Origin: an uncultured Bacteroidota bacterium
GTDB lineage: Bacteria; Bacteroidota; Bacteroidia; Bacteroidales; VadinHA17
Reading direction: 5' to 3'
Assembly: GCA_937864815.1 (NCBI GenBank)
Contig: CALMJY010000331.1
Location: forward strand, 1-58,458
DNA length: 58,458 nucleotides
The first letter of the stretch is position 1, and each line of letters opens with the position of its first letter. Position numbers and translations under genes: made by a program. Positions 9,084 to 56,786 of this stretch are shown piece after piece. Under the pieces are notes generated by a model, which made no database searches, had not been told where the DNA came from, and saw only the letters and a list, made by a program, of their open reading frames with translations.

Positions 9084-9111
9084 CGTATGCCGTGTGTCGT
9101 GCGTCGTGCGC
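9084..9111. repeat. Heptanucleotide tandem repeat (CGTRYGY x4)
   Basis: Four in-phase seven-base units, CGTATGC, CGTGTGT, CGTGCGT and CGTGCGC, lie between the GH5 start and the stop of the URO-D-like gene, ending two bases from that stop codon. This is one of several short-period tracts at gene 3' ends in the window. Confidence 0.85.
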
Positions 9112-9113
9112 CC

Positions 9114-10277
9114 TTAAATTTCAATATCAAACTCCCCGAGCTTCAGCGGGTACTTACCGTACTCCCTCACCAGCTTTACAATATAATCATATGTACGGCC
9201 CGAAACAGATCCGGATACAGAATGATCAGACTGGAAGATGAATCCTCCTCCCTTTGCCGCGTTCAGCTTTTTCAGCGTTTCACGCCTTATAAGCTCAAGG
9301 TCATTTGTTTCCCAGATCATTATGTCGTTGTTGCCGCAATATCCTATTTTATTCCTGTAGAGTCTTTTCAGCTTAATGACATCCATCTCGGCTTTTACCT
9401 CAAGCGGATTATACGCATCCAGCCCCATATCGGCAAAATCTCCGAGGATTGCATTAACATTACCGCAGCCATGATAGATAACAGGCAGTTTGTTTTTGTG
9501 GCATTCGTCTATCATTGCCTTAACCCATGGTCTGAAATAATCACGCCAGTAATCCGGATCGAAGAGCATCGAATTTTTGTATGCCACATCACCCCATATC
9601 ACAAATCCGTCGAGAAGCCCTTCGGCTGCTTTTATCTGAGCCCTGGTACCGTCGAGATAGAACTGACCTATCCTGTTTATCACAGCGCCGAGTCTCTGAG
9701 GATACATACCAATCCAGAAGAGAAAATTCTCCTGTCCGATCAGTCTTGTAAGACATTCCGAACATTCAATAATACTGCCGTATACAGGGAAATCAGGCCT
9801 GAGTTTCTTTACCGTATCAATCCAGGGAGCAGAATTTCTTTCAAATCCATCTCCGACACCTGCAATCTGGTTATCGCCCGAAGAAAAGAACCTCCTGGGA
9901 TCGGCAGGATCATCAAACTCAAGGGCCTCCAGCTTTTCAATTGAAGTTGTGTCAAACGATATCCATTCAGGCATCGGAAAATCAAATCTCTTCCTTATTG
10001 TTGCCAGAAATCCTGTTTTGATAACCACCTCTTCACTATTCTCGCGGACAGTTTCAAACGCTTGTATGAAGGGATCCATATTGGGAGTTGTCACTATCCA
10101 GTCGAGATCGTAATAATAATATGGACTGGCATCTTCAGGCAGTTTAAGTTCCTCACGCCACCTTCGTATAAAGCTCCCCCAGAAAAAATCACTTATCGGG
10201 ATCCTGTCGGGCTCCTGGTGATTCAGGGCCTTTTTCATCCTTTCAAGCTTTGCAAGGCAGTTTGCTGTACGGTTCAT
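9114..10277 (-). CDS. URO-D superfamily (MtaA-like) protein 1
   Basis: The 387-residue protein belongs to the uroporphyrinogen decarboxylase superfamily, which includes both HemE and the cobalamin:coenzyme methyltransferases MtaA/MtbA. It opens with the MtaA-type ERMKKALNHQEPDRIPISDF rather than the HemE motif RQAGRY. It keeps a putative zinc site His-Gly-Cys (about 269-271) with a later Cys in GYCGNND (about 314), like the H-x-C...C site of MtaA. The gene starts one base after the stop of the GH95-like gene (TGA-T-ATG), implying translational coupling. It is cytoplasmic (no signal). Role inferred: methyl transfer linked to glycan use; no corrinoid protein is in the window. Confidence 0.8.
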   Translation of the reverse strand: MNRTANCLAKLERMKKALNHQEPDRIPISDFFWGSFIRRWREELKLPEDASPYYYYDLDWIVTTPNMDPFIQAFETVRENSEEVVIKTGFLATIRKRFDFPMPEWISFDTTSIEKLEALEFDDPADPRRFFSSGDNQIAGVGDGFERNSAPWIDTVKKLRPDFPVYGSIIECSECLTRLIGQENFLFWIGMYPQRLGAVINRIGQFYLDGTRAQIKAAEGLLDGFVIWGDVAYKNSMLFDPDYWRDYFRPWVKAMIDECHKNKLPVIYHGCGNVNAILGDFADMGLDAYNPLEVKAEMDVIKLKRLYRNKIGYCGNNDIMIWETNDLELIRRETLKKLNAAKGGGFIFQSDHSVSGSVSGRTYDYIVKLVREYGKYPLKLGEFDIEI

Positions 10278-10278
10278 A

Positions 10279-12720
10279 TCATAAAGATTTTAGTACAATT
10301 TCCTCTCCCTTTTTTGTTTCCCTTTCAATTACACCTTCAGGGCTTACTAACCTGAGCTTATTTCCTGCTTCACTTAATATCCTGATATTCGCTATTTTAC
10401 CATTCCTTAACTGCGCACTTACAAGAAATGCACCTGCAGCCCTGAGCTTATAAAATTCAGCATCTTTGTCAGAAGGCCAGTTCGGGAAAAGCCTTATCTC
10501 ACCTTTGTAGCTTTGCATCATACATTCATTAATAACTGCAGGCAGTGCAAAGTTCTCGAACCATACCCCCATGTGATCCATGAATCCATAATTCCCAAAG
10601 TCATTGTACCTGCCGTGAACCTGAATTGCCCGGTCAGATGCTGTACCGTTTGGCAACAGACAATAGTATATCTGTCTTTTGAACTTTTCCAGATCAAGCA
10701 TTCCTATCCTTGCAGCCTGCAGGTTTTTGAATACCAGGTCGTTTCCTCCTTCATTCTGCTGATTCATGAAAGTATTTTTCACCAGATTAAGTGTCTCCGG
10801 ATCTGAATGCAGACCATGATCCTCTCCGGGAAAAACTGTTATCAGCACATTTGGAACATTGTAAACAACCTGGTCATGTTCACCCGGTACTGATACTATA
10901 ACCTTCCCGTATTTGTCTGAATCAGCAGTGGGGTAATCAGGGTAATTTTCGAGGATATCTACAACATCAGCAAGCAGGGAAGCCTCACTTTCCTTCAGGT
11001 CAAGGACATTAACAGCTTCCTGAAAAGCCTTAAAGATGAACTTAATAAGAGTCAGGTCAACAGTGCAGTCGAAATTATATTTAAATCCCGGCCTCAGTGC
11101 ATAAAGTTCAGGTGGTATAGTCGGAAATACATGGTATTTGTTATCATTCCATTGCGGACCTCTTGCCTCAGGTCGCTTCATATAGGCAACAAGGAATTCA
11201 ACTGCTGCCTTAATTGGTTCATAGCCCCTGTTTTTCAGGTACTCCTTATCGCAGGAATAAAGATAATGCCACCACAATCCCTGGACTGCCCAGGGAGTTT
11301 CACAGATTTCCCATCCCCAGTGCGGGACAGGATATGGATTCATGGTCATTTCCACAGGGTATGCCGAGTGAGGAAAATATGCCCCGGGAAGCTTATAGTA
11401 TTCCCTGGCCCAGCTTCTGCTCACATCCATCAGAAATTCAATAAGACTTACATATGACAGGTTCTTTTCAAGGTGATTGCTGGAGAATGTCACCCAGAAG
11501 GGTTGCTGTGTATTATAGTTCATATGATAATCGCCATGCCATGCAGTTCCTATGTTGTTGTAACTCCAGTTGGCAAACAATCCGGGGGTATTAACACCCT
11601 CTTTTACAGCACAATTCAGGAAATAAAGATTGTGGTACCATATCTTTTCCAGGAACTGGTCTTCAAGAGCCACTCCCGATTTATTCCAGTATTCCTTCCA
11701 TAATCCATCGCTCATTTCACGGGATGCTTCAAAATCCTGAAAGGAAGGATCCTGAAGGTTCTCAGGTGCCGGCGGCAGGGAGGAGCTTAAATCCTCATCA
11801 AGAGTTATATAGCCAACAAAACTATCCTTTCCCGTGATTGAGCCTTCCAGCTTACCCATGCTTTCATTATTACCATCCCAGTTTATCCTGGAGGTCTTTT
11901 TAAGTTCAGAATTCACCTTCACTGAAAGGGAAAATGCTTCATCTTTAGGATGACCTTTTGTCGGGTCGTATACAGCTGGTTCCTCATATGGCATAATCTG
12001 CCTGAATGAAAGTGTTCCTCGGGAAAGGTCCTCAGTAATTCCATATGCCGGAAATTCATTCGGTGTTGACGGATCAGGCATAACATGTACCCTGTCAAAT
12101 ACGCTGGCTGCCGGGGATCCGGTTTCATCGACAAGTCTCATCCATAATTTATCATCAACCATATCAGCAAAGACCTGAAGTACTATATGTTTCTTTTCAT
12201 TGGTCAGAAGATAAACCTCACACATACCGTTAGATATATCGAGCTTATGACCAAGCATTTCTGCATTCCTCAGATCAAATCCCAACAATACTGATCCGCA
12301 TGGAAACGGACGGGGATATGGTTTCCTGTAATTCTCAGCTGCCATGGTGCTGTATTCGGCATACCAGGGGTCATCGGTAAGAAGTGCAAGTGTATCGGGT
12401 ATTGATTTAACCTTATTAAATACATAGTCAAAGGTTTTAATCTTTTCCCTGTTATCCTCAGCCACACGTATATCCCAGACATTATTATGTCCGAAATAAA
12501 TTACGATTGCATCAGGTCTTGTTGTGACTACAGCTCCCATACCACCATTGCCAAGCAATGCACCATCAAAAAAACCAATTGCCGGCTTGTTCATTTCTAT
12601 CGGGTGAAGCTTTGCCCTGTCGAAAGAGGAAAATTGGTCAGTACCTGATTTATCATTACTGCAGCCGATAAGGATCAGGGCTATAAAGAAAAAGATTGGT
12701 AACCTGGTCATATTGTTCAT
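10279..12720 (-). CDS. GH95-like lipoprotein glycoside hydrolase
   Basis: The 813-residue protein has a lipobox (LILIGCSND). It shows a GH95-like architecture: an N-terminal beta-sandwich with LLGNGGMGAVV, a central (alpha/alpha)6 barrel with GLFANWSYNN...WHGDYHMNYNTQQPFW, and a C-terminal beta domain with RLFPNWPSDKDAEFYKLRAAGAFLVSAQLRNGKI-type sequence in its last 90 residues, as in alpha-L-fucosidases and alpha-L-galactosidases of that family. The match is distant, so a neighbouring (alpha/alpha)6 family is possible. It would sit on the membrane and act on oligosaccharides in the periplasm or outside. The next gene starts one base downstream. Confidence 0.72.
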   Translation of the reverse strand: MNNMTRLPIFFFIALILIGCSNDKSGTDQFSSFDRAKLHPIEMNKPAIGFFDGALLGNGGMGAVVTTRPDAIVIYFGHNNVWDIRVAEDNREKIKTFDYVFNKVKSIPDTLALLTDDPWYAEYSTMAAENYRKPYPRPFPCGSVLLGFDLRNAEMLGHKLDISNGMCEVYLLTNEKKHIVLQVFADMVDDKLWMRLVDETGSPAASVFDRVHVMPDPSTPNEFPAYGITEDLSRGTLSFRQIMPYEEPAVYDPTKGHPKDEAFSLSVKVNSELKKTSRINWDGNNESMGKLEGSITGKDSFVGYITLDEDLSSSLPPAPENLQDPSFQDFEASREMSDGLWKEYWNKSGVALEDQFLEKIWYHNLYFLNCAVKEGVNTPGLFANWSYNNIGTAWHGDYHMNYNTQQPFWVTFSSNHLEKNLSYVSLIEFLMDVSRSWAREYYKLPGAYFPHSAYPVEMTMNPYPVPHWGWEICETPWAVQGLWWHYLYSCDKEYLKNRGYEPIKAAVEFLVAYMKRPEARGPQWNDNKYHVFPTIPPELYALRPGFKYNFDCTVDLTLIKFIFKAFQEAVNVLDLKESEASLLADVVDILENYPDYPTADSDKYGKVIVSVPGEHDQVVYNVPNVLITVFPGEDHGLHSDPETLNLVKNTFMNQQNEGGNDLVFKNLQAARIGMLDLEKFKRQIYYCLLPNGTASDRAIQVHGRYNDFGNYGFMDHMGVWFENFALPAVINECMMQSYKGEIRLFPNWPSDKDAEFYKLRAAGAFLVSAQLRNGKIANIRILSEAGNKLRLVSPEGVIERETKKGEEIVLKSL

Positions 12721-12757
12721 TTTAAGAATACTAATCTGATATATTATACCTGAAAAA

Positions 12758-12839
12758 CATCCCCCTTACCCCCTTCAAAGGGGGAATAGAGCCTTCTGGC
12801 CCTGCACCCTTACGCCTTCCGCCTTACGCCTTTATCTTA
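12758..12839. repeat. Composite repeat: heptad tract plus CCCCCT palindrome
   Basis: Bases 12805-12839 hold in-phase heptads CACCCTT, ACGCCTT, CCGCCTT, ACGCCTT and TATCTTA. The stop codon of the PQQ-propeller gene (12824-12826) and its last codons lie inside this tract. Next to it, 12758-12790 is a palindrome, CATCCCCCT-N-ACCCCC-TTCAAA-GGGGGAAT, closely matching two copies in the sufB-sufC gap. The element separates two genes of the same operon by about 100 bases. Confidence 0.8.
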
Positions 12840-14062
12840 TACACCATCAACGCACTCCCATGCCTCACATACAGTCTTCCCTTGTAAATCACAGGGTGCG
12901 AGAAATGCGGTCCTTCTCCCAAAGGAATCCTGAACCTGCTGATCGCCTTAAAGGCATTCCTGTCAGCACTCATAAGAGCCATCTCCCCTTTCTTACTGTA
13001 ACAATAGAAAAACCCGTCGGCAAGAAGGATGCTTCCGTCACCGAAATCAGTGAACGAATGAAGTGTTTTGCCATCGGTAATATCAACACACATCCATTTA
13101 TTTGAATTATAAACAGAACCATAGATAAGACCATCCCTCAGTATAAAGCCTTCCATGAGGTTTTTGAAATCCATGTTCCTCCAGAGCTGGGTTACCTTTT
13201 TTCCGTCATCGGATAGCTTTAAGGCAACAAGGCCGTTATTGCTGGTTTCATTCTCACTGGCACAGTAAACTATTCCGTTTGAATACAATGGAACGTTTGC
13301 ATGGATCTTATAAGTCTGGTTCTGGTTTACATCCCAGTAAAACTGGCCTGTTTTTGCATCAACCCCGATTATTGAGCCATCAGTCATTGTAACAATGAGC
13401 TCGGCATTCCTGTGCCGTACATAAATTGAAGAGCAGTAAGCAGAGGGTTTCAGGTTCCCAGGACTTGTCCATATTGTTTCACCTGTAAACCTGTTCAGGC
13501 AGGCCACATTGTCCTTGATCCCTCCCGGGGTGCAGAAGATCCTGTCACCTTCAATGAGCATGTTTTCAACCAGTCCCCATGTTACTTTTCTTGCGCCAAA
13601 GCGATTCTGCATGTCCAATGTCCAGACTTTTTCGCCAGAACCGGCATTAATGCAATATATCACTCCATGCCCGCTCTGGAAATATACCAGGTCGTCAATA
13701 ACAAGCGGGGTGGATCTGGGTCCGGCATAGTTCTCATCCCATTCAGGACCATAAGGCTTTTTCCAGATAAGGTTACCGTTATAATCAAATGCAAAGAGGA
13801 ACCCTGTCTTGTTTTCAAGACCTGTGATAAAAAACCTGTCTTTCCCCGGACCTATGCTTGTGTGTCCTTCTCCCAATCCCTGGTAAGACCATATCATTTC
13901 AGGGCCCTTTTCAGGCCACGCTTTCAGCAAACCTGTCTCAGGTATTATTCCGTTCCGGTCAGGCCCCCTCCACTCATATATCTGCCCGTTGATAATTCCG
14001 GAAAAAAGTATCAGGAGGGTGGTAAATATAATTAAGCGCTTTTTACCCATAGTTTCTGTCAT
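12824..14062 (-). CDS. Secreted PQQ-like beta-propeller (BamB-like) protein
   Basis: The 412-residue protein has a Sec signal peptide (after MTETMGKKR; the ATG four codons in may be the real start). It is built of PQQ-like propeller blades: FLFAFDYNGNLIWKK, VIYCINAGSGEKVWTLD, VACLNRFTGETIWTS and IIGVDAKTGQFYWDVN. These fit proteins annotated as PQQ-binding-like or outer-membrane assembly BamB-like. No quinoprotein dehydrogenase active-site residues were recognised, so a structural or binding role is more likely than catalysis. It is the first gene of the minus-strand glycan operon, divergent from the aldo/keto reductase with a 75-base AT-rich intergenic region that must hold both promoters. 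Confidence 0.8.
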   Translation of the reverse strand: MTETMGKKRLIIFTTLLILFSGIINGQIYEWRGPDRNGIIPETGLLKAWPEKGPEMIWSYQGLGEGHTSIGPGKDRFFITGLENKTGFLFAFDYNGNLIWKKPYGPEWDENYAGPRSTPLVIDDLVYFQSGHGVIYCINAGSGEKVWTLDMQNRFGARKVTWGLVENMLIEGDRIFCTPGGIKDNVACLNRFTGETIWTSPGNLKPSAYCSSIYVRHRNAELIVTMTDGSIIGVDAKTGQFYWDVNQNQTYKIHANVPLYSNGIVYCASENETSNNGLVALKLSDDGKKVTQLWRNMDFKNLMEGFILRDGLIYGSVYNSNKWMCVDITDGKTLHSFTDFGDGSILLADGFFYCYSKKGEMALMSADRNAFKAISRFRIPLGEGPHFSHPVIYKGRLYVRHGSALMVYKIKA

Positions 14063-14137
14063 ATTAAGTTAATCCCGTTAAATATAAGGAAATATTATCT
14101 TAATTTTAACAAGACAATTATCTACAAAACAGAGCCC

Positions 14138-15337: not shown

Positions 15338-15349
15338 AACCTTAGCAGA

Positions 15350-18298: not shown

Positions 18299-20482
18299 AT
18301 GAATAAGAATCTCCTTCCGCTTCTATGCATGGTTTCACCGGCAATCACATCATGTAATATAAGTCATGACAGGGATGATGCTAAAGGTGTAAAACCCAAT
18401 GTCATACTTTTTCTTATAGATGATTTCGGCTATGGTGATATCAGCTTCGAAGGAAACAGCCAGATACAAACTCCGAACATCGACAGGATTGCCCGGGGAG
18501 GTTCCAGCTTCACGAGGTTTTACCAGAGCGCAGGAGCTTCTGCCCCCACAAGAGCATCATTGCTGACAGGACGGTATCACCTTGAAACAGGGGTATGGGA
18601 TGTACATGATGGCAGGGACTTTATCAGAAAAGATGAAACAACAATTGCGGATGTCCTTAAAAAAGAAGGCTATGCCACAGGGGCTTTCGGGAAATGGCAC
18701 AGTGGCAAGACTTACTCGTATTTCTCCTGGAGCCGGGGTTTTGATACAGGGATACATCCGGTACTTTACAATTTCCTCGACAACAAACTGATATTCAATA
18801 ATAAGATTGTTAATACCGATGGGCCTGTTGAAGATGTACTGGGAAACGAGGTGGTAAAATTCATTGAAAGGAACAGGGACAAGCCCTTTTTTGCCTATGT
18901 CCCCGTACAGTCTGTCCACGAACCGTTTAACTGTCCTGCAGCTTTATTCGAAAAATATAAGGCAAAGGGCTACAGTGATCATGTATCAAGGCTATATGGA
19001 ATGATAGAGCTTTTTGACAACAACATTGGCAAAGTTCTCGATGCAGTTGAAAAAAACGGCCTTGAGGAAAAAACCATCATCATGTTCATGTCTGATGACG
19101 GACCTGCTCCCGGCTTCGATCTGTCCTATTCAAACCGCAGGATGAACGAAAGTGAACAGGCTGAAAGGTCGAGGGCATGGAAAACGCTTCACAGGGGAGG
19201 AAAGGCTTCAATCTATGAGGGCGGAGAGTTAACCCCGTTTTATATTATGTGGAAAAATACGATCCCCCGGGGAAAGAAATTCAATGAATTATCAGGGATC
19301 ATCGATATTTTTCCAACAATTCTTGACGCATGCAATATAAAGATTCCTGAAAATAACCTTCCCCTTTCAGGTAAAAGTCTCTGGCCTTTACTGAAGGGAA
19401 AAAGGATAAGAGACTGGGATAACAGGTATTATTTTGATAATACAAATTTTTATCAGATACCCAGGGGCAAAATCAATATTGATCATCCCAGGGTAAGGCA
19501 GATTTCAGTCCAACACAGAAACTACAAGCTGATCAGGTTTGATATGTTTCATTACGGGAAAGATTCTGTTTATTGTGAGTTATATGACCTGGAAAAGGAT
19601 CCTCTGGAAAAAACCAATATTGCATCAGCTAATCCTGAACTGACTAGTTCACTTAGAAAAGAAACTGAAAACTGGTTTGAATCAATACTCAGAGGAGGAA
19701 GAGCTTACGATCAGGGAATATATGAACCTGGAAAATGGGAAGAAAGGGGCTCTCCTGTAAATTTGGATGCTTATGTTGATTTATTTTCAAATGATCTTAA
19801 TATTGAAAAGACCTTATTTTCAATAGATAATCTGAAAGAACCTGGCAGCTATATCAGCTACGACATAAACATTTCAGAAAAAGGGACTTACAGCGTAGAG
19901 ATTGGATACAATGCTGAGTCAGTAAACCCGGGGAGTGAGTTCATCGTTTTCACAAAATATGATACGGCATCATTAAAAATATCTGGAAAGAACTCATCGG
20001 TCAGTGAAATACTCTCACTTCCGCAAGGACGTCAATTGCTGACTTTAAAACGTACCAGAAAGGGAACAGGAAGAGCTGAAACAGAAAGGATCAGCAGTAT
20101 GATTATACACAGGATACCTGAAGATAAGGATACTTTGGTTATCCAAAATCCCCAAATAAGAATCTCACATGGCAAGGATAACAACCGCACTTTCTCTCTT
20201 CTGAATGATGTGGCAGATTTTATGTTCCTGGGAAAACGGCTGGATTCACTTTTTCACATCAGGAGCAATGAAACATTCTTAATTGAACCTTTTGCAGATA
20301 ATCCCGGGCAGATTGCTTCTGTGACCTTTTTCCGTGATTTTGATCCTGTTAAAGAAATTACAGCTCCTCCGTTCCTCTTCGAATTACAGTGTGCTCCCGG
20401 AGAAAAATTCACCTTAAATGTCGAATTCAAATCAAGAACCGGGGTAAAAAATTCTGTCAGAGCTTATCTGATAGCTGACTGA
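18299..20482 (+). CDS. S1 family sulfatase, serine type, with C-terminal beta domain
   Basis: The 727-residue lipoprotein (lipobox ITSC) contains the alkaline-phosphatase-like sulfatase fold in its first 480 residues: NVILFLIDDFGYGDI for calcium binding, the modified-residue motif SAPTR (Ser about 81) and GKWHSGK. Ser at the start of that motif means that formylglycine must be made by an anaerobic sulfatase-maturating enzyme (anSME), not present in this window. A further 240 residues form beta-rich domains of unknown role. It would remove sulfate from a glycan, which points to a sulfated, probably marine or animal-type, polysaccharide as target of the locus. Confidence 0.9.
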   Translation: MNKNLLPLLCMVSPAITSCNISHDRDDAKGVKPNVILFLIDDFGYGDISFEGNSQIQTPNIDRIARGGSSFTRFYQSAGASAPTRASLLTGRYHLETGVWDVHDGRDFIRKDETTIADVLKKEGYATGAFGKWHSGKTYSYFSWSRGFDTGIHPVLYNFLDNKLIFNNKIVNTDGPVEDVLGNEVVKFIERNRDKPFFAYVPVQSVHEPFNCPAALFEKYKAKGYSDHVSRLYGMIELFDNNIGKVLDAVEKNGLEEKTIIMFMSDDGPAPGFDLSYSNRRMNESEQAERSRAWKTLHRGGKASIYEGGELTPFYIMWKNTIPRGKKFNELSGIIDIFPTILDACNIKIPENNLPLSGKSLWPLLKGKRIRDWDNRYYFDNTNFYQIPRGKINIDHPRVRQISVQHRNYKLIRFDMFHYGKDSVYCELYDLEKDPLEKTNIASANPELTSSLRKETENWFESILRGGRAYDQGIYEPGKWEERGSPVNLDAYVDLFSNDLNIEKTLFSIDNLKEPGSYISYDINISEKGTYSVEIGYNAESVNPGSEFIVFTKYDTASLKISGKNSSVSEILSLPQGRQLLTLKRTRKGTGRAETERISSMIIHRIPEDKDTLVIQNPQIRISHGKDNNRTFSLLNDVADFMFLGKRLDSLFHIRSNETFLIEPFADNPGQIASVTFFRDFDPVKEITAPPFLFELQCAPGEKFTLNVEFKSRTGVKNSVRAYLIAD

Positions 20483-20875: not shown

Positions 20876-20923
20876 TCTCCCATTCTCCCCATCTCCCGGT
20901 CTCATCGTCACCTCATCTCTCTA
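20876..20923. repeat. Octanucleotide tandem tract over a gene 3' end
   Basis: Six in-phase eight-base units begin with TCTCCCAT, TCTCCCCA, TCTCCCGG, TCTCATCG, TCACCTCA and TCTCTCTA. The stop codon of the following minus-strand URO-D-like gene (20908-20910) and its last few codons are made of this repeat. Confidence 0.75.
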
Positions 20924-22164
20924 AGAGCTTCAAGCATCGCTACAACATTTTCAAAAGGAACATTTGCCTGAACGTTATGAACAGTATTAAAAACAAAGCC
21001 ACCGTTATTGTTAAGTATTTCACACTGCCTTTTGACCTGTTCCTTTACCTGGTGGGGAGTTCCGAAGGCAAAAGCCCCCTGTGTATCAACACCTCCTCCC
21101 CAAAAAACAAGTTTGTCACCGTATTTTTTCTTAAGAACAAGCGGATCCATGCCAGTTGCATTTATCTGAACCGGATTTATTATATCGAAACCTGCCTCGA
21201 TGAAATTATTCAAAAGGGTCTCAACCGCCCCGCACGAGTGCTTGAAGGTCTTCCACCTGGTATTTTCATGAATCCAGTCGTTTACCTTGCGGTAATAGGG
21301 CAGCCAGACTCTGTCGAATGTTTCATTGGAGCAAAAAGTTGAATTCTGTGTCCCGAAATCGGTGCCGCAGGTAAATACAACATCAAGCTTGTCGCCAATC
21401 ACTTCATTATACTTTCGGAGGTTTTCAATTGCTATATCTGTCTGCCGCTCATAGAGTTCCTTCACAAAATCCTCCCTCATAAGTGTTGATATGTACCACT
21501 CTTCAACTCCTCTTATACCCTTAGGATCTTTTAGTTGCATGGCTGGTACGAGGGCAATATCGCCAAGTGCTGTTCCTCCAAGTGAGGCGACAACTGCCTT
21601 GTTTTCACTGTCAGCTCCCTCAGCCTGTTTCTTCCAATACTGAAGGTCACTATCGGTTATGTATCCAAACTCTTCAAGGTTATCTTCCACTTTAAGCGTT
21701 GAATCATCAATAGGTTTCTGCCTGTTCAGGGCATCGAAAAAATATCCTGATTTTGGCATCATCGCTGTCGGGGGATATGATGTATCACCTTCAGCATAGA
21801 TCAGGATATCTCCGTTGTCATTATACTTATAGTTGAAATCTCCGGGAAAAAGTACTTCCTGTCCCCACAGGGTTTTGTGTACTTTCCAGTTCTCATTTGC
21901 TATGCCGAACATGTTTTTATGCCCGTATAATCCAACCACATCCAGATCCATAGCCTTAACAAGTTCGGTGTCGATCTCACCCAGCATCTGGTAAGGTTCA
22001 ATTACCTTTACCGGACGTTTTTCCAGACCGTAGTACTCACGTAGCTTTTCCACAATAAGAACATGTATGCCGGTAACTGCTGTTGATCCGAAATCTACAA
22101 CAACCCTGTCGGGCTGCTTATGATTGATTGTCTTATGAAAATTTAGTTTAGAAGAGGAAGCCAT
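20908..22164 (-). CDS. URO-D superfamily (MtaA-like) protein 2
   Basis: The 418-residue cytoplasmic protein has the family start FHKTINHKQPDRVVVDFG and the H-x-C-G motif FKHSCGAVETLL (His about 309, Cys about 311). At the position where MtaA and the other copy (9114-10277) carry the third Cys ligand it reads VFWGGGVD, so the zinc site appears incomplete. It lacks HemE motifs. Sequence similarity to the first copy is low, so this is not a recent duplication. It is on its own, with its start divergent from the hypothetical gene at 22279. Its C-terminal codons lie in a tandem octad repeat. Function unknown; methyl transfer is an inference from family. Confidence 0.78.
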   Translation of the reverse strand: MASSSKLNFHKTINHKQPDRVVVDFGSTAVTGIHVLIVEKLREYYGLEKRPVKVIEPYQMLGEIDTELVKAMDLDVVGLYGHKNMFGIANENWKVHKTLWGQEVLFPGDFNYKYNDNGDILIYAEGDTSYPPTAMMPKSGYFFDALNRQKPIDDSTLKVEDNLEEFGYITDSDLQYWKKQAEGADSENKAVVASLGGTALGDIALVPAMQLKDPKGIRGVEEWYISTLMREDFVKELYERQTDIAIENLRKYNEVIGDKLDVVFTCGTDFGTQNSTFCSNETFDRVWLPYYRKVNDWIHENTRWKTFKHSCGAVETLLNNFIEAGFDIINPVQINATGMDPLVLKKKYGDKLVFWGGGVDTQGAFAFGTPHQVKEQVKRQCEILNNNGGFVFNTVHNVQANVPFENVVAMLEALREMR

Positions 22165-22274: not shown

Positions 22275-22278
22275 TAAC

Positions 22279-27266: not shown

Positions 27267-28514
27267 ATGTCAGTCAGAATTCACATCCTGCTTCCTGCAA
27301 TTCTGTTTTTGACACTTTACGCCTGTCAGCCATCAGGTAAAAGTGAACCTGAGGAATTTTCTGTGACTACCGATTCATCAACTATATCGACTTCTGATAC
27401 TGCAACACCGGTCTTTATGTATGGTATCAGATCTGATTCCTTCGATCTTATTCATGGTAAGATTAAACGTAATGGTTTTCTTTCGGAAATTCTGATTCAT
27501 CATGGGGTTACGATGCAGGAAATTGACCAGGCAGTCAGAAATTTCAAATCGGTTTTCGATGTAAGATCAATACGTGCAGGCAATAAATATGTTCTTTTCT
27601 GCGACAGGGACAGTAATGCAAGGGCAAGATATCTTGTTTATGAGCACGATCCGACTACCTGCTATGTGTTCGGTTTCAATGATTCCATATACATAACACC
27701 CTACAGGAAAGAAATTAAGAGTGAAATTAAATATGCTTCAGGTACCATTGAGACTTCATTGTGGGAGGCGATGATGGCCGACAGTCTTCATCCGTCTGTG
27801 GCAATAGATTTATCGGATATATTTGCCTGGACAGTAGATTTTTTCGGACTCCAGAAGGGAGACAAATTTAAAGTCATTTATGAAGAGTTATTTGTAGATG
27901 ATAAATCGCTGGGAACAGGAAAGATTTTCGGTGCACAGTTTTGCTGGTCAGGTGACGTTATCACAGCAATCCCTTTTATTCAGGAAGGAAGAGAGTCATT
28001 TTTTGATATCGACGGAAACAGCCTGAGGAAGGCATTTCTAAAAGCACCCCTCCAATTTTCGAGGATAAGCTCACGGTACTCAGCTTCAAGGATGCATCCG
28101 ATACTTAGAATAAGAAGACCTCATCATGGAGTTGATTATGCAGCCCCGGTTGGCACGCCTGTTCATGCAATAGGTGACGGAAGAATTACTTCAGCCACCA
28201 GGGAGAACGGATCTGGTCTGATGGTAAGAATACAGCATAACAGCGTTTATTCAACCGCATATCTCCACCTTAGCAGATTCGGAAAGGGAGTTTCAGCAGG
28301 CACATACGTTAAGCAGGGTGATGTCATAGGTTATGTTGGAAGCAGCGGACTTTCAACAGGTCCTCACCTGGATTTCAGGTTTTATAAGAATGGCTCACCA
28401 GTTGATCCGCTCAAAGTTGAAGCCCCTCCTGTTGAGCCGGTATCGGAAGAAAACCTTTCGAGATTTGAAGTAAATAAAACGGTGGTGCTGGATTTGTTGG
28501 AGACATTTGATTAG
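27267..28514 (+). CDS. M23 family metallopeptidase lipoprotein
   Basis: The 415-residue lipoprotein (lipobox LYAC) has an N-terminal LysM/OapA-like region and a C-terminal M23 domain of about 130 residues. This domain starts RISSRYSASRMHPILRIRRPHHGVDYAAP with the H-x3-D zinc motif and ends SSGLSTGPHLDFRFYKNG. The usual HxH zinc motif is HLD here, so one ligand is Asp instead of His. The family cleaves peptidoglycan cross-bridges. It is probably co-transcribed with leuS. A heptad repeat begins on the last base of its stop codon. Confidence 0.88.
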   Translation: MSVRIHILLPAILFLTLYACQPSGKSEPEEFSVTTDSSTISTSDTATPVFMYGIRSDSFDLIHGKIKRNGFLSEILIHHGVTMQEIDQAVRNFKSVFDVRSIRAGNKYVLFCDRDSNARARYLVYEHDPTTCYVFGFNDSIYITPYRKEIKSEIKYASGTIETSLWEAMMADSLHPSVAIDLSDIFAWTVDFFGLQKGDKFKVIYEELFVDDKSLGTGKIFGAQFCWSGDVITAIPFIQEGRESFFDIDGNSLRKAFLKAPLQFSRISSRYSASRMHPILRIRRPHHGVDYAAPVGTPVHAIGDGRITSATRENGSGLMVRIQHNSVYSTAYLHLSRFGKGVSAGTYVKQGDVIGYVGSSGLSTGPHLDFRFYKNGSPVDPLKVEAPPVEPVSEENLSRFEVNKTVVLDLLETFD

Positions 28515-28572
28515 GTGCTGGGTGCTGGGTGCTGGGTAGATTATCCAGAACCCAGAACCCAGTACCCAGAAT
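28514..28572. repeat. Inverted pair of heptanucleotide tandem tracts
   Basis: Three copies of GGTGCTG (28514-28534) are followed by a ten-base spacer and four copies of CCAGAAC-like units (28545-28572, with CCAGTAC and CCAGAAT). The two arms are nearly complementary, with two mismatches (potential G-U pairs in RNA) in 20 bases, giving a large hairpin between the convergent M23 and purN genes, possibly a bidirectional terminator. Confidence 0.88.
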
Positions 28573-48783: not shown

Positions 48784-48818
48784 TTATTAGGTTTAAGTCA
48801 GGTTTAAAGGTTTGGTTT

Positions 48819-49885: not shown

Positions 49886-49888
49886 GGT

Positions 49889-50434: not shown

Positions 50435-50436
50435 GA

Positions 50437-50982: not shown

Positions 50983-51041
50983 AGCGATATGGTTTACTGA
51001 ATATAAGACGTCAAATTATAAGCAAGGTAAAAAACATCTTG

Positions 51042-51049
51042 TACTTTTG
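51042..51049 (+). promoter_or_regulatory. -7 promoter element TACTTTTG for yjbQ
   Basis: TACTTTTG fits TAnnTTTG and ends four bases before the ATG at 51054, implying a leaderless transcript. It supports that ATG over an upstream one. Confidence 0.6.
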
Positions 51050-51053
51050 TATT

Positions 51054-51461
51054 ATGCAAAAGATAATCACCATCCGCACCGATCGTCATAATGGTCTCTA
51101 TGATATTACAAATGAGGTCACTGATCTCATAAGAGAAAGTCATGTAAAAACCGGGATTGCTTCAGTTTATGCAAGAGGGGCAACAGCTGCAATAATGATA
51201 CAGGAAAATTGGGATCAGTCGGTTCAGAATGATGTTGTTACACTTTTAAGCAAGCTGGTTCCTTCCGGAATATGGGAGCATGATAATCAGGATAATAATG
51301 GCGATTCCCATCTGAAAGCAGGAATAATCGGAGCTTCTGAGACAATCCCTGTTATTGATGGCAAGCCAGGACTCTCAACCTGGCAGAATATCTTCCTTTG
51401 TGAATTTGACGGACCACGTGAAAGTAGAGAGATTGTTGTGACAATTATTGAAGACAAATAA
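51054..51461 (+). CDS. YjbQ/UPF0047 family protein
   Basis: The 135-residue protein is of the UPF0047/YjbQ family, annotated as secondary thiamine-phosphate synthase. Visible are ITIRTDRHNGLYDITNEV, GIASVYARGATAAIMIQENW and the metal-site segment NGDSHLKAGIIGASETIPV. The start at 51054 is chosen because an upstream ATG would overlap the -7 element. In vivo role is uncertain. It converges with queG. Confidence 0.9.
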   Translation: MQKIITIRTDRHNGLYDITNEVTDLIRESHVKTGIASVYARGATAAIMIQENWDQSVQNDVVTLLSKLVPSGIWEHDNQDNNGDSHLKAGIIGASETIPVIDGKPGLSTWQNIFLCEFDGPRESREIVVTIIEDK

Positions 51462-51480
51462 TTTTAAGTCCCTGGTGATT

Positions 51481-51556
51481 CTTTGTGTCTTTGAGCCTTG
51501 GTGGCATTTCTCTTTGCCACCAGGACACAAAGGCTCTAAGTTTCACCAAGGTTCTT
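51481..51556. repeat. Inverted repeat of octad type over the queG 3' end
   Basis: Left arm CTTTGTGT, CTTTGAGC, CTTGGTGG is an in-phase eight-base repeat; GGTGGC and GCCACC close a hairpin around ATTTCTCTTT. The right arm repeats related words (GACACAAAGGCTC, TTTCACCAAGGTTC). The queG stop codon (51536-51538) and its last codons lie within the element. Confidence 0.75.
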
Positions 51557-52486
51557 TGAGATTACTTCAATATTCCTCTTAAACCTGTCGAACTTAACCC
51601 GCTCAATGGGAGTACCTTTAAAAACTGAATCGAATTTATCCTTACCGAGAGACAACCATTCTTCTTTAGTCATGTTAGCCAGTTCCTCCGAAATCATAAA
51701 TTCAGGAACATTATGTTGCCTGGCTTTTTTATTCCAGGGACAAACTTCCTGGCAGATATCGCAACTGTAGACCTTTCTTCCCATAAGTGGAATTATCTCC
51801 TCCGGAACCGCTCCCCTGTTGCCAATTGTAAGATTAGCGATACATCTCCTTGCATCGATAGTCCTGTCATCGTTAATTGCATGGGTAGGACAATGGTCAA
51901 TACATGCTCTGCATCTGCCGCATTTATCTTCTTCAACGGGATTGTCATAATCAAGTTCAATATTCAGTATCAGCTCTCCGATGAAGAAGAATGATCCTAT
52001 CATATCATTGATTACAACTGAATGTTTTCCCCTCCAGCCCAGACCTGCTTCAACCGCCCAGGTTTTCTCAAGAACGGGTGCATCATCGCAGAAAGCTTTT
52101 CCTTCAGTTCCCGGAGCCAATACTTTTAAATATTCAAGGAGCTGCTCCATTTTTCCTGTGATAAGATTATGGTAATCTTTTCCAAGAGCATAGATTGAAA
52201 CAAGCGGAACATCAGTATGTTTCTGTCGCATATCCGTATAATAATTCAGCCCGGTTACAATCATCGATCTGGCACCGGGGAAGAGGACTTCAGGATTTGT
52301 TCTTTTTTCAGGATCCCGTGTAAGATAGGTCATCCTGTCATGCATACCGCTTGCACACCATTTTTCAAGTACATTACCGGCTTCAGTCAAATGCCTGACA
52401 CGTGCAATACCGCAAAGATCAAAGCCAAGTTCAGATGCCTTTGCCTTAACAAGATCCGATAATCTGGTGCCCGCAGATGCGGTCAT
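51536..52486 (-). CDS. queG: Epoxyqueuosine reductase QueG
   Basis: The 316-residue enzyme reduces epoxyqueuosine to queuosine in tRNA, using cobalamin and two [4Fe-4S] clusters. The clusters are shown by CGRCRACIDHCPTHAI and SCDICQEVCPWNK; ALGKDYHNLI and a conserved N-terminal SELGFDLCGIARV are typical. Its length is short compared with E. coli QueG but normal for this phylum. It lies downstream of sufT in the Fe-S assembly cluster, sensible for an iron-sulfur enzyme. Confidence 0.94.
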   Translation of the reverse strand: MTASAGTRLSDLVKAKASELGFDLCGIARVRHLTEAGNVLEKWCASGMHDRMTYLTRDPEKRTNPEVLFPGARSMIVTGLNYYTDMRQKHTDVPLVSIYALGKDYHNLITGKMEQLLEYLKVLAPGTEGKAFCDDAPVLEKTWAVEAGLGWRGKHSVVINDMIGSFFFIGELILNIELDYDNPVEEDKCGRCRACIDHCPTHAINDDRTIDARRCIANLTIGNRGAVPEEIIPLMGRKVYSCDICQEVCPWNKKARQHNVPEFMISEELANMTKEEWLSLGKDKFDSVFKGTPIERVKFDRFKRNIEVISKNLGET

Positions 52487-52498
52487 GGTAAATTTATT

Positions 52499-52819
52499 TT
52501 ACAAAAAACCGAGTTCCAGCTTTGCCTCTTCGCTTAGCATACTCTTATCCCATGGTGGTGTAAAGGTAAGTTTCAGGTCAACCTCCTTCACTCCTTTTGC
52601 CCCACCTATCTTATACCTGACTTCCTCGATCAGCTCCTCAGCCATCGGACAGTTTGGAGCTGTAAGTGTCATTGTAATATGAGCAATTTGATCATCATCA
52701 AGACCGATATTATAGATCAGTCCAAGATCATAAATATTTACAGGGATTTCAGGATCGTATATGGTTCTGAGAACTTCACCAATCCTTGTTTCTATTTCAA
52801 GTTTTTCAGCTGCGTCCAT
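52499..52819 (-). CDS. sufT: SufT-like (MIP18/DUF59) Fe-S assembly protein
   Basis: The 106-residue protein has the MIP18-family core YDPEIPVNIYDLGLIYNI and TLTAPNCPMAEELIEEV with its conserved Cys. SufT-type proteins help mature Fe-S proteins. The ATG at 52819 follows the sufE stop by one base and is preferred over an earlier ATG inside sufE. It is the sixth gene of the suf operon. Confidence 0.88.
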   Translation of the reverse strand: MDAAEKLEIETRIGEVLRTIYDPEIPVNIYDLGLIYNIGLDDDQIAHITMTLTAPNCPMAEELIEEVRYKIGGAKGVKEVDLKLTFTPPWDKSMLSEEAKLELGFL

Positions 52820-52820
52820 C

Positions 52821-53249
52821 TTAGTTAATTTTTTGGCGTGCATCATAAGCCATTGCGTAAAGCTTCATCTGTCTGACCATTGAGAGAAGCCCGTTTGACC
52901 TTGTTGGCGAGAGATTCTGCCTGAGGCCAATCCTGTCTATGAAATACAGCTCAGCAGTAATGATCTCCTGAGGTGTATGCCCGGAAAGGACCTTAATAAG
53001 CAGAGATACTATGCCCCTTGTAATAATAGCATCACTGTCGGCTGTAAAACATATAACATTACCGTTATATTCAGGCCTGAGCCAAACTTTTGACTGACAA
53101 CCTTCAATAAGGTAATCCTTTACTTTGTACTTCGGATCGATAGGAGGAAGGTCCTTCCCCATTTCAATAAGAAGATTATATTTATCCATCCAGTCGTCGA
53201 AAAAAGAGAACTCTTCAATTATCTTATCCTGTACTTCGCTGATAGTCAT
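52821..53249 (-). CDS. sufE: Sulfur acceptor SufE
   Basis: The 142-residue protein accepts persulfide sulfur from SufS on the Cys of LIEGCQSKVWL. EFSFFDDWMDKYNLLIEMGKDLPP and ITRGIVSLLIKVLSGHTPQE are standard. The start at 53249 (MTISEVQDK) is chosen because an upstream extension would lie inside sufS. It starts ten bases after the sufS stop in the operon. Confidence 0.94.
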   Translation of the reverse strand: MTISEVQDKIIEEFSFFDDWMDKYNLLIEMGKDLPPIDPKYKVKDYLIEGCQSKVWLRPEYNGNVICFTADSDAIITRGIVSLLIKVLSGHTPQEIITAELYFIDRIGLRQNLSPTRSNGLLSMVRQMKLYAMAYDARQKIN

Positions 53250-53259
53250 ATATATTTCA

Positions 53260-54495
53260 TCAAAACATGCTCTTAACCTTTTCAATTCCCTGAACGAGTG
53301 CTTCAATCTCCTGCCTTGTGTTATAGAAACACATTGAAACCCTTACAGTTCCATCAATCCCGAAAAAATCCATAACAGGCTGTGCACAGTGAGTCCCGGT
53401 TCTGACTGCTATACCCAGCTTGTCAAGAACCATTCCGGTATCATACTGATGGATGCCGTCAATAAGGAAAGAGATTGTGGAAATTTTTCTTTCGGAATTA
53501 CCATAAATTGTTACACCTTCAATGCCGGATATGCATTCTGTTGCATACGAAAGCAATTGTCTTTCACGTTCAGCAATTTCCTCCCTGCCCAGCTCAGTTA
53601 TATAATCAAGTGCCGCTCCAAGTCCCACTGCGCCGGCATAATTCATTGTACCAGCTTCAAATTTGAATGGCAGATGATTATAGGTGGTCTTCTCAAATGT
53701 CACTTTCTCCACCATGTCACCACCTCCCTGGTAAGGAGGAAGTTCTTCCAGCCATTTCTTCTTTCCATAAAGAACTCCAATACCTGTCGGACCGTAAATT
53801 TTATGTCCGGAGAAGACATAGAAATCACAATCCATTTTTTGTACGTCAACAATTCCGTGCTGGATACCCTGAGCACCATCAACCAGCACAGGAGTATTGT
53901 TTGAATGGGCTGCTTCAATAATTTCATTAACCGGCACAATTGTACCCAGCGCATTTGAAACCTGTGTTATAGCTACAATTTTTGTCTTAGGTGAAAGAAG
54001 TTTCAGATATTCCCCGGTGATTATTTCCCCATTGCTATTCATAGGAATTACTTTCAGAATAGCTCCTTTCCTTTCACAGAGCATCTGCCATGGAACAATA
54101 TTGGCATGGTGTTCGAGATGGCTAACAATTATCTCATCTCCCCTTTTGATATACCTTTCACCAAATGAAAAAGCAATTGTGTTAATTGAACCCGTTGTAC
54201 CTGAAGTGAAAACGATCTCTTCCTTTCCTGAAGCATTTATAAATGCCGCAACCTTCTGCCTGGCATTTTCATACGATTCGGAAGCCATATCGCTCAGGTA
54301 ATGTACTCCCCTGTGGATATTCCCGTTGAAGAAAGTAAGAATCTCATCAACAGAGTCTATTACACGCTGTGGTTTCTGGGCAGTTGCACCGTTATCGAAA
54401 TAAACCAGTTGTTTACCGTATACTTTTCTGCCAAGTATTGGAAAATCGGACCTTATTTCGGAAATATCTTTCACCTGATTTAGTCTTATCCGCAC
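53260..54495 (-). CDS. sufS: Cysteine desulfurase SufS
   Basis: The 411-residue PLP enzyme takes sulfur from cysteine and passes it to SufE. The PLP Lys is in FSGHKIYGPTGIGVLYG, the catalytic Cys in RTGTHCAQPVMDFF. EVSHLEHHANIVPW-like sequence is also present. The GTG at 54495 overlaps the sufD stop; a second GTG seven codons on is possible. Confidence 0.95.
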   Translation of the reverse strand: MRIRLNQVKDISEIRSDFPILGRKVYGKQLVYFDNGATAQKPQRVIDSVDEILTFFNGNIHRGVHYLSDMASESYENARQKVAAFINASGKEEIVFTSGTTGSINTIAFSFGERYIKRGDEIIVSHLEHHANIVPWQMLCERKGAILKVIPMNSNGEIITGEYLKLLSPKTKIVAITQVSNALGTIVPVNEIIEAAHSNNTPVLVDGAQGIQHGIVDVQKMDCDFYVFSGHKIYGPTGIGVLYGKKKWLEELPPYQGGGDMVEKVTFEKTTYNHLPFKFEAGTMNYAGAVGLGAALDYITELGREEIAERERQLLSYATECISGIEGVTIYGNSERKISTISFLIDGIHQYDTGMVLDKLGIAVRTGTHCAQPVMDFFGIDGTVRVSMCFYNTRQEIEALVQGIEKVKSMF

Positions 54496-55844
54496 TTAAC
54501 CACGCAACTTGCACATCGGGATAATTCGCCTCTGAGACGCTGCATAACCAGATTATCCATCCTTTCCCGCAGAGGTTCAATTCTTATATTCTGTATAACT
54601 TCGTGAGCGAATCCGAACATTAGCATAAATCTGGCCTCCCGTTTGTCAATCCCTCGTGACTGAAGGTAGAACATGGCATTTTCATCAAGCTGTCCGACTG
54701 TTGCGCCATGGCTGCATTTCACATCATCAGCGTAGATCTCAAGCTGTGGTTTTGTATCCATTTTTGCATCATCAGTCAGCAGGATATTATTGTTTTTCTG
54801 ATAGGCAAGTGTCTTTTGAGCATCTGGTCTTACAAGAATTCTCCCGTTAAAGGTACCAGTTGACATATCATCCAGAACCCCCTTGAAGAGCTGGTTGCTG
54901 GTACAGTTTGGGAAAGCATGGTCAACATTAACAAAATTATCAACATGCTGCCATTTGTCGGTGAGATATAATCCGCAGGAGCTTGTTTCAGCTCCTTCCC
55001 CGCCCAGGTAATGATATGTACTGTTACGTATCAGGCCTCCGTGGAGAGTCATATTGATTGAGGATGTCACACTGTTTCTTTCCTGGTGAATGAAAGTATG
55101 CGTGACTTTGCATGCAGCATTATGCTCGTTCTGGACTCTGATCAGATCGAAATGTGCATTTTCCCCCACATAAACTTCTGTTACGGCATTTGTAAGGAAT
55201 TTCTTAGGGGCAAGAGTATGATCACAGACTATTATCGAAAACTCAGCTCCTTTTTCAACAATTATAAGATTTCTATGCTGATTGAATGTATCTTCCTCTG
55301 ACTGGACAAGGTCTACAACCTGTACCGGTTTGTTGAGTCTGACCCCTTCAGGAACATAGACAAAAACCCCATCAAAAGCCATTGCTGTATTCAGATGGAC
55401 AAGGCCATCCGCATCGCTGTGAGCATATTTTCCGTAATGTTTCATAATCAATTCAGGAAATCTGAGGGCAGCCTCATTAAGACTTCCCACCCATACTCCG
55501 CTGGGCAATTGCCTGAGCTTATCACTTAATGTAGGGTAAAATCCGTTAAGGAGCACAAGTCCGTGAGCATCAAGATCAGCTACATCACATCTGAAATCCT
55601 CAGCTTTTTTGAAATCGGAATCAACCGGAAGGAAATAGCCTGTATAATCGTGATCAAAAAAAAGGTTGAGATTAGTATATTTATAAGCCTCGCTCTTCCT
55701 TGTGGGAATTCCAAGCTCACCAAACCTGTCAAAAGCCGCACTTCTGAATGAGTTTAAATAGGGTGATGATATTGACGAGATCTTATCAATATTATCCCTG
55801 TAAAGTTTAAGGTATCTGCCTGTTACTTCTGATACTCCGTTCAT
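54486..55844 (-). CDS. sufD: Fe-S assembly protein SufD
   Basis: The 452-residue protein is part of the SufBC2D scaffold. It has the right-handed beta-helix typical of SufB/SufD and the C-terminal DDVKCSHGATVGQLDENAMFY with the conserved His. Its start overlaps the sufC stop by four bases (ATGA), showing translational coupling. Confidence 0.95.
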   Translation of the reverse strand: MNGVSEVTGRYLKLYRDNIDKISSISSPYLNSFRSAAFDRFGELGIPTRKSEAYKYTNLNLFFDHDYTGYFLPVDSDFKKAEDFRCDVADLDAHGLVLLNGFYPTLSDKLRQLPSGVWVGSLNEAALRFPELIMKHYGKYAHSDADGLVHLNTAMAFDGVFVYVPEGVRLNKPVQVVDLVQSEEDTFNQHRNLIIVEKGAEFSIIVCDHTLAPKKFLTNAVTEVYVGENAHFDLIRVQNEHNAACKVTHTFIHQERNSVTSSINMTLHGGLIRNSTYHYLGGEGAETSSCGLYLTDKWQHVDNFVNVDHAFPNCTSNQLFKGVLDDMSTGTFNGRILVRPDAQKTLAYQKNNNILLTDDAKMDTKPQLEIYADDVKCSHGATVGQLDENAMFYLQSRGIDKREARFMLMFGFAHEVIQNIRIEPLRERMDNLVMQRLRGELSRCASCVVKCG

Positions 55845-56605
55845 GCTATAACATTGTTTTCAACCTCTTTTTTAATCCAGTCATATCCCTTTGCTTCAAG
55901 CTCCAGGGCTAGTTCCTTTCCAGCTGTTTTAACTATTCGTCCGTCATACAGGACATGAACAACATCCGGTACGATATAATCGAGAAGCCTCTGATAATGG
56001 GTGATTACTATAAATGAATTATCGGGCCTTTTAAGCTTGTTTACCCCATTTGCCACAATTCTGAGAGCGTCGATATCAAGTCCTGAATCTGTTTCATCGA
56101 GGATTGCAAGGGTTGGTTCAAGCATGGCCATCTGGAAGATCTCATTCTTTTTCTTTTCTCCTCCCGAATAACCTTCATTGACTGATCTGTTGGCAAGCTT
56201 GGAATCAATTTCAACAAGCTCTTTTTTGTCACGCATCATCTTCAGGAAATCAGATGCTGAAAGAGGTTCCAGTCCATGATGTTTCCTTTTTTCATTGATA
56301 GCGGTCTTCATGAAATTCACCATACTTACCCCGGGGATCTCAATGGGATACTGGAACCCCAGGAAAATACCCTCTTTGGCACGGTCTTCAGGAGATAACT
56401 CCAGAAGGTCATGCCCCATATATTTTACTGTACCTTCAGTAACTTCCGCAAATTCCCTTCCTGCCAGCACAGATGCAAGTGTACTTTTCCCTGAACCATT
56501 CGGGCCCATTATAGCGTGAATCTCACCCGGCTTTACATGAAGGCTTATTCCCTTTAATATGTTCTTGCCTCCTATTGAGGCTTTTAAGTTCTTAATATCA
56601 AGCAT
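55841..56605 (-). CDS. sufC: Fe-S assembly ATPase SufC
   Basis: The 254-residue ABC ATPase drives the SufBCD scaffold. Walker A is GPNGSGKSTLASVLAG, the signature YSGGEKKKNE, and Walker B LAILDETDSGLDIDAL. No transmembrane partner is present, as expected. A repeat-filled 182-base gap separates it from sufB. Confidence 0.97.
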   Translation of the reverse strand: MLDIKNLKASIGGKNILKGISLHVKPGEIHAIMGPNGSGKSTLASVLAGREFAEVTEGTVKYMGHDLLELSPEDRAKEGIFLGFQYPIEIPGVSMVNFMKTAINEKRKHHGLEPLSASDFLKMMRDKKELVEIDSKLANRSVNEGYSGGEKKKNEIFQMAMLEPTLAILDETDSGLDIDALRIVANGVNKLKRPDNSFIVITHYQRLLDYIVPDVVHVLYDGRIVKTAGKELALELEAKGYDWIKKEVENNVIA

Positions 56606-56630
56606 TTTATAATCTGTTTATCTTTTTTTA

Positions 56631-56786
56631 CATCCCCCTGATCCCCTTCAAAGGGGGAATCGGATGTGATACTTTTGTCTTTTAACTTTTATCTTTTGTC
56701 CTATTTTACATCCCCCTGCCCCCTTCAAAGGGGGAATCAGCCGGGGAATTCTGCCTTGTGTCTTTTGCCTTGTATCTTGTGTCTTT
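56631..56786. repeat. Double heptad-palindrome repeat between sufB and sufC
   Basis: In the minus-strand direction from the sufB stop: five in-phase heptads (56752-56786: TGCCTTG, TGTCTTT, TGCCTTG, TATCTTG, TGTCTTT), palindrome CATCCCCCT...AGGGGGAAT (56709-56738), four heptads (56671-56698: ACTTTTG, TCTTTTA, ACTTTTA, TCTTTTG) and a second palindrome copy (56631-56660). The unit heptad plus palindrome is thus present twice, with unrelated heptads but nearly identical palindromes. Confidence 0.88.

Follow-up and report, generated by a model that had tools for sequence, protein, structure and literature searches.

Why should short tandem arrays with a unit of seven or eight bases gather at the ends of genes? 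This question is raised by a 58,458 bp stretch of DNA (contig CALMJY010000331.1, hereafter the window) from an uncultured Bacteroidota bacterium of the Bacteroidales lineage VadinHA17, where such tracts lie on or within a few bases of several stop codons. Heptameric repeats are known from scattered bacteria without an explanation of why the unit is seven, why they are intergenic and why they lie near gene ends. The Bacteroidales genus analyzed here offers filled and empty versions of one and the same junction, which points to arrival as inserted DNA, and its tracts show a measurable peak at stop codons, a tendency that at least one congener shares. We think it fairly probable that the tracts are related families of dispersed heptad and octad array elements that have been inserted, remodelled in unit steps and held at gene 3' ends. 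We class them as a lineage-specific, multi-family variant of the known heptanucleotide repeats, to which the STRR and heptameric repeats of cyanobacteria and xanthomonads belong.

Tracts were detected with Tandem Repeats Finder (TRF) and a custom period scan using dinucleotide shuffles as the null, and genes were called with a custom script. The tracts of the window and the repeats beside them are:

9084-9110, minus strand: period-7 tract, sense GCACGAC, 3 nt behind the stop of a URO-D gene (9114-10277, minus strand); TRF and period scan
12757-12790, no strand: palindromic dispersed repeat of CCCCCTTACCCCCTTCAAAGGGGG type near the PQQ-propeller tract
12808-12832, minus strand: period-7 tract, sense GGCGTAA, containing the stop of the PQQ-propeller gene (12824-14062, minus strand); TRF and period scan
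20876-20917, minus strand: period-8 tract, sense GGGAGATG, containing the stop of the second URO-D gene (20908-22164, minus strand); period scan
28514-28537, plus strand: period-7 tract GGTGCTG, hairpin arm 1, its first base being the last base of the M23 peptidase stop; TRF and period scan
28545-28569, minus strand: facing period-7 tract, sense GGGTTCT/GGGTACT, hairpin arm 2, 19 nt from the stop of the convergent purN-like formyltransferase gene
51473-51540 (approximate), no strand: imperfect inverted octad repeat of CTTTGTGT type in the UPF0047/queG gap, with the queG stop in its right arm; by eye
about 56630-56660 and about 56708-56741, no strand: two palindromic dispersed repeats of CCCCCTTTGAAGGGGG type that alternate with the sufB tracts
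56672-56700, minus strand: period-7 tract, sense GACAAAA, in the sufB-sufC gap; TRF and period scan
56749-56785, minus strand: period-7 tract, sense GACACAA/GATACAA, beginning 2 nt behind the sufB stop; TRF and period scan

The original prediction, made from the letters of the window, had already pointed to these places. All six of its period-7 tracts and its period-8 tract at 20876 were recovered by the period scan, with TRF listing the same places, and its stop positions agree with ours to within one base. Specifically, the PQQ and second URO-D stops are inside tracts, the M23 stop shares one base with its tract, and the sufB and first URO-D stops, predicted to be close to tracts, are 2 nt and 3 nt away by the tract limits of the scan. 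Its second octad tract, at 51481-51504, is found by neither TRF nor the period scan and appears by eye to be one arm of the inverted repeat at 51473-51540, which is weak as a tandem tract and whose second arm holds the queG stop (51536-51538, by eye).

The source genome (4.66 Mb in 348 contigs, 97% complete) was sampled in two parts that together cover about one fifth of it. The first sample consists of the window and 60 further stretches (652,208 bp, 110 kb of it intergenic) chosen mainly via contig number, and the second is a further 322 kb, mostly from contigs carrying GGTGCTG tracts, and is therefore biased. Below, G numbers denote genomes and L numbers denote stretches or loci within genomes (L195 being G000:C346). 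In the first sample there are 38 intergenic period-7 tracts relative to 0.8 in shuffles, and 20 period-8 tracts relative to 0.8. Period 10 has a weak excess (8 vs 0.4), and periods 5, 6, 9, 11, 12 and 13 each give 0-4 tracts vs 0.4-1.4 in shuffles. The intergenic excess extends to multiples of 7 and 8, and coding sequence contains six period-7 and four period-8 tracts. The commonest number of whole units per tract is four (26 of 121 tracts), followed by three (25 of 121). The genome-wide excess that had been predicted is thus present in the sampled part of the genome and also in congener G012, where 15 period-7 and 9 period-8 tracts were found relative to 0.4 and 0.2, respectively; small samples of G017 and G001 have a period-7/8 excess as well. 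The same scan returned zero period-7/8 tracts in G011 (14 kb intergenic), in G039 of another family (12 kb) and in 7.5 kb of E. coli. A chance origin of the tracts is ruled out by the shuffles and by these species. An assembly artefact was also rejected given that the key tracts are inside contigs with conserved neighbours; some contigs (L104, L125, L185 and L194) begin or end in arrays.

The placement of the tracts is far from even. Among the 42 tracts of the first sample that lie between two genes, density is 1.88 per kb in convergent gaps, 0.91 in tandem gaps and 0.15 in divergent gaps, and outside divergent gaps 22 of 40 tracts are within 10 nt of a stop, relative to 10.3 expected from uniform placement. 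When both samples are counted (L195 left out), there are 49 tract-to-stop and 13 tract-to-start relations within 15 nt. Tandem gaps that carry a tract have the nearest one within 12 nt of the stop in 29 of 41 cases across both samples, as compared with 15.5 expected under a null that keeps 20 nt before the next start free, and none of 20,000 simulations reached this value. The first sample alone gives 17 of 25 relative to 10.7 (P = 0.0003). These 29 tract starts fall between -9 and +12 of the stop, and 16 of the 41 tracts start at position 0 or before it. In G012, nine tracts are near stops and two near starts. GC-rich perfect hairpins served as a rough control: in tandem gaps free of tracts they are near the stop in 1 of 16 cases vs 2.5 expected, although some of these hairpins will be terminators, whose place is further downstream. 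Tolerance of inserted DNA explains part of the stop placement, not all, in these counts. The predicted enrichment at 3' ends is therefore borne out (22/40 and 29/41, and likewise in G012). The accompanying belief that such a bias was undescribed was wrong, since a 3' bias is already present in the account of heptameric repeats in PMC4692102.

Pfam domains are present in 8 of 10 tested genes that end at tracts (the ten being drawn from 19 listed). Near-stop genes include those for a family A DNA polymerase, NqrA, RACo, a nickel insertion protein and SufB, which is not the surface-gene association of phase-variable simple sequence repeats.

There is also a polarity to the tracts. Of 49 cases no more than 15 nt from a stop, 41 have a G-rich sense strand (partly from selected stretches); the near-stop counts are 17 of 23 in the first sample, 9 of 9 in G012 and 14 of 17 in other congeners. 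When adjacent tracts share a gap, a G-rich tract followed by a C-rich one is seen 17 times, the reverse order twice and the same strand six times across both samples, with the first sample contributing 6, 0 and 4. Much of the near-stop G-rich polarity comes from these two-tract gaps, and in single-tract tandem gaps the sense strand away from stops is G-rich in 1 of 11. Of 21 adjacent pairs, nine fold with z below -2, with the M23/purN pair of the window reaching z -7.7; single tracts have no partner. Paired elements that begin no more than 3 nt from the end of the stop codon are found in the window and in L131, L182, L183, L184, L187, L192 and L197. By eye, with no scan run, no T run of the sort that completes an intrinsic terminator lies directly behind the right arm in 15 paired gaps, and L136 has a separate hairpin with a T run between its arms (by eye). 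The word GGGTNCT fits G runs of the G-quadruplex type; GACACAA, GACAAAA and GTTAAAA do not.

The history of the tracts can be read from orthologous junctions, with M23/purN junctions placed in congeners using both proteins and sufB-sufC gaps using the SufC protein. The M23 and purN genes overlap in 26 of 29 congeners, by 4-36 nt, and in two of 29 their ends are 4 nt apart; in G002 (L253) they are separated by 125 nt with palindromes. In the window this gap is 74 nt and is filled by two facing heptad arrays, and a filled gap where congeners have overlapping stops looks like inserted DNA and not like local slippage. The arrays are new DNA at a place where relatives have none. The junction sequences of the relatives (TTTAATTAA and similar) hold no GGTGCTG-like seed, and an origin of the first unit by slippage is disfavoured at this site. 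The named relatives of the M23 gene are Bacteroidales and Bacteroidota metagenome-assembled genomes. At the second junction, the sufB-sufC gap is 16-40 nt in 15 of 22 congeners and 182 nt in the window, where tract, palindrome, tract and palindrome follow each other; some of the longer congener gaps contain their own heptad runs or palindromes (L152, L162 and L168, by eye). In syntenic G002, a palindrome takes the place of the tract at the first URO-D 3' end, the PQQ ortholog ends in a degenerate and different heptad run that is under the scan threshold, a 7-mer run is present at the second URO-D stop and nothing comparable is seen at the queG 3' end (all by eye). When orthologous ends are counted with the own genome included, a scored tract starting within 15 nt of the stop is found for M23 in 1 of 30, for PQQ in 1 of 7 (only the 7 closest of 30 loci being used), for sufB in 2 of 23 and for queG in 1 of 30. 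Since orthologous 3' ends carry differing content and tracts are rare per site, the arrays differ from species to species.

The original prediction had held that the tracts have unrelated sequences, and had suggested a shared generating mechanism, not sequence spread. Neither view fits the unit vocabulary, which is limited: 77 period-7 tracts (L195 left out) fall into 42 unit classes, relative to about 71 expected from random intergenic heptamers, and are dominated by the related words GGGTGCT/GGGTACT/GGTTACT, GGCGACA/GGCGTCA, GACACAA/GACAAAA, GTAATCA/GGTAATC and GGCAGTT. Tract loci also match other loci. When 80 nt of flank are included on either side, a match of at least 50 nt, not purely periodic, exists on another stretch for 39 of 121 tracts. 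Several of these run through the array, among them the M23/purN hairpin of the window, which matches a convergent and stop-anchored hairpin at L183:7328-7383 with 84% identity over 57 nt. Tandem GGGTNCT is patchy, occurring in 14 of 58 genus genomes and 13 of 296 phylum genomes, the own genome being counted in both. This vocabulary, the shared loci, the patchiness of GGGTNCT and the presence of the M23/purN arrays at a site of overlapping genes in congeners contradict the proposed contrast between a generating mechanism and spread of sequence. Published heptamers queried against plasmids gave no match with the low-complexity filter on.

The explanation that we favour, insertion of array elements, would proceed as follows. 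Ready-made array DNA, either a single array or a G-rich arm with a facing C-rich arm behind it, would enter between genes, and would then be lengthened, shortened and patched by one-unit tandem duplication and exchange. The arrays would turn over fast between species and settle at or a few bases from stop codons, rarely between divergent genes. A facing pair would give an mRNA hairpin directly behind the stop codon, and such a hairpin would act like a repetitive extragenic palindromic (REP) element, either protecting the 3' end or having an effect where translation ends; any function would at most be that of a REP-like hairpin at mRNA ends. The prevalence of 7 and 8 may still call for a copying process with a fixed step. 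Alternatively, the arrays could be neutral intergenic debris, without function or targeting, that inserts anywhere and survives only at gene 3' ends because promoters and translation starts must stay intact. This is possible, although we regard it as rather doubtful. It is consistent with the scarcity of tracts between divergent genes and per orthologous site, as well as with the tiny gaps of this genus (28 of 29 M23/purN junctions overlap or are 4 nt apart, and the median tract-free convergent gap is 19 nt), and with gaps that compact in congeners nearness to a stop partly follows. However, debris does not account for stop anchoring that persists when the 20 nt before starts are kept free, nor does it give any reason for the order of G-rich then C-rich arms. 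A more local origin, with each array built from resident sequence through replication slippage or by a polymerase copying its last 7-8 bases over again, is unlikely. Slippage would suit a fixed period with changing units and the fall of unit identity along the tract (from 0.81 at lag 1 to 0.46 at lag 7 in 51 tracts of at least five units, relative to 0.70 to 0.58 with units permuted), and an earlier suggestion, cited in PMC4692102, is that heptamers reflect the DNA segment held by a polymerase. It is countered by the lack of a seed at the M23/purN junctions of relatives, by a second array that faces the first, by units common to different loci beyond chance, and by composite arrays in L195 that repeat their heptad order.

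Three further explanations have a lower standing. By analogy with the opposite-strand paired tandem 7- and 8-mers of Geobacter metallireducens, for which the passages of PMC2700814 that treat them suggest such a role, the tracts could be sites bound by an unknown global regulator, but this is improbable. A phase pattern, YDNMMRG, is common to the 42 unit classes and exceeds its null (3.88 bits vs 3.04 +- 0.11), but the tracts are located at 3' ends, congeners differ at the same ends, and shared ancestry of the families may be all that the pattern reflects; it is not used in our explanation. Mobilization of REP-like elements by Y1 transposases of the REP-associated tyrosine transposase (RAYT) type has very little likelihood. 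The hairpin layout at stops and the palindromic repeats beside several tracts are in keeping with it, but G041 and G050 carry GGGTNCT arrays without a Y1 match and G000, which has the most array matches (33), has three Y1 matches; no link of arrays to Y1/RAYT transposases is evident when judged on Y1_Tnp copy numbers only. Lastly, there is a slim chance that the stop codon itself is the target, with some process linked to the termination of translation or transcription that would write heptad-periodic DNA there, purine- or G-rich in the sense direction. One example of such a process would be reverse transcription that starts on mRNAs cut at their stop codons. The arrays would then be scars of gene ends and not tolerated debris.

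Several observations weigh against insertion and retention of array elements at 3' ends. The unit vocabulary (42/77), the tract-pair orders and the 29/41 count take in stretches that were picked for GGTGCTG tracts. Periods 7 and 8 are not alone in being enriched, as G012 has seven period-12 tracts relative to 0.4 and the loci of named relatives have periods 6, 9 and 10 in excess beside 7 and 8. Among these relatives the near-stop sense strand is G-rich in 2 of 6, and the polarity of single-tract gaps is weak (near stops 15 of 21 are G-rich, P = 0.08, with the first sample giving 9 of 14). With regard to hairpins, 12 of the 21 adjacent pairs fall short of z -2, and arms pair only slightly better with each other than with a random other tract (-23.6 vs -19.3). 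The sufB-sufC gap is long (89-144 nt) in 7 of 22 congeners, so the long gap in the window is not unique. Some of the 39 matches between stretches cover the flank only and not the tract (window 20876, L093 and L184:7482). Finally, neither a transposase nor a target duplication nor any other machinery for insertion was identified.

The short tandemly repeated repetitive (STRR) sequences of cyanobacteria are likewise heptanucleotide tandem repeats, with other words. The closest resemblance is to the GGGNATC and GGGGA(C/T)T heptameric repeats of Xanthomonas and Nostoc (Rehm et al. 2015, PMC4692102, which also mentions Calothrix heptanucleotides). In the parts of that paper that concern placement, the coding strand of these repeats is G-rich within 50 bp of stops, including overlap with them, the non-coding strand is the G-rich one upstream of genes, and 83% of sites are kept between two Xanthomonas species. 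They share with our tracts heptamer units, dispersed and intergenic positions, depletion between divergent genes, an unassigned function, single or inverted paired arrays and a G-rich coding strand near stops. As in those repeats, the tracts form period-7 tandem arrays at many, mainly non-coding loci. They differ in that many word families as well as octads occur in one genome, with several words (GACAAAA, GTTAAAA) not being G-quadruplex-like, in that tandem-gap starts concentrate so tightly around the stop, and in that sites are mostly not kept between congeners, these species being more distant than the Xanthomonas compared.

Other systems are less similar. The TAACTGA repeats of Beggiatoaceae, Cyanobacteria and some Bacteroidetes (MacGregor 2015, PMC4679880) are likewise heptamer arrays that are patchy across phyla, with some relatives having shorter array-free gaps; however, as described in portions of that paper, they have a single word and in a Beggiatoaceae genome lie mostly just upstream of starts, unlike the 13 start vs 49 stop relations found here (the word itself was not searched). 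The Geobacter metallireducens arrays also include heptads and octads, mostly as opposite-strand pairs, but the relevant passages of PMC2700814 present them as regulator sites and note no placement at stop codons. The REP elements of E. coli, in the sections of PMC12306157 and PMC13289151 that describe them, are hairpins dispersed through the genome, some of them no more than 15 nt from a stop codon, but are palindromes and not heptad arrays. Relative to what these works describe in those parts, three features appear to be new: one genome carries many families, octads among them; a single genus has both filled and empty versions of a junction; and anchoring at the stop is sharper. Beyond the cited works, the literature matches listed showed no description of Bacteroidales tracts or of exact stop anchoring.

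Within the window, a dispersed palindrome of CCCCCTTTGAAGGGGG type adjoins heptad tracts at 12757-12790, 56630-56660 and 56708-56741, and the same junctions in some congeners have other palindromes instead. The inverted octad repeat at 51473-51540 is of CTTTGTGTCTTTG type, and octads of this type occur in other phyla. A sulfatase gene (18299-20482) adjoins the octad tract at 20876; it has no match in the fetched stretches of G002, and its syntenic neighbours are adjacent there.

Outside the window, positions 3900-8230 of L195 hold a row of small co-oriented genes between two FKBP-type genes, coding for DUF4160, DUF2442, nucleotidyltransferase/HEPN, DUF6922/AbiEii and ORF6N proteins that are toxin/antitoxin-like. 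One long composite heptad element is copied behind several of their stops (82-97%) with its heptad order repeated, and the DUF2442 reading frame extends into the array. A steady drift of units along a tract was rejected, as L195 instead exhibits a mosaic of families in repeated order. Integron-like cassettes, which this gene row had suggested, were also rejected, with no integrase search being made, given that the conserved sufB-sufC pair carries the same kind of tract.

A further phylum member, G304, has 11 GGGTNCT loci on its contig C1 (L361-L371; GC content 65-72% in the stretches read). The G-rich strand is the minus strand at four loci between 0.23 and 1.53 Mb and the plus strand at seven loci between 2.2 and 3.53 Mb, and a DnaA match is located at 3.55 Mb; the G-rich strand of these arrays seems to switch with the replichore. 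By our custom gene calls, other families on this contig overlap stops (GGGATGA and GAGGGTGT), and a CCCGTAC family is located 3-4 nt before starts.

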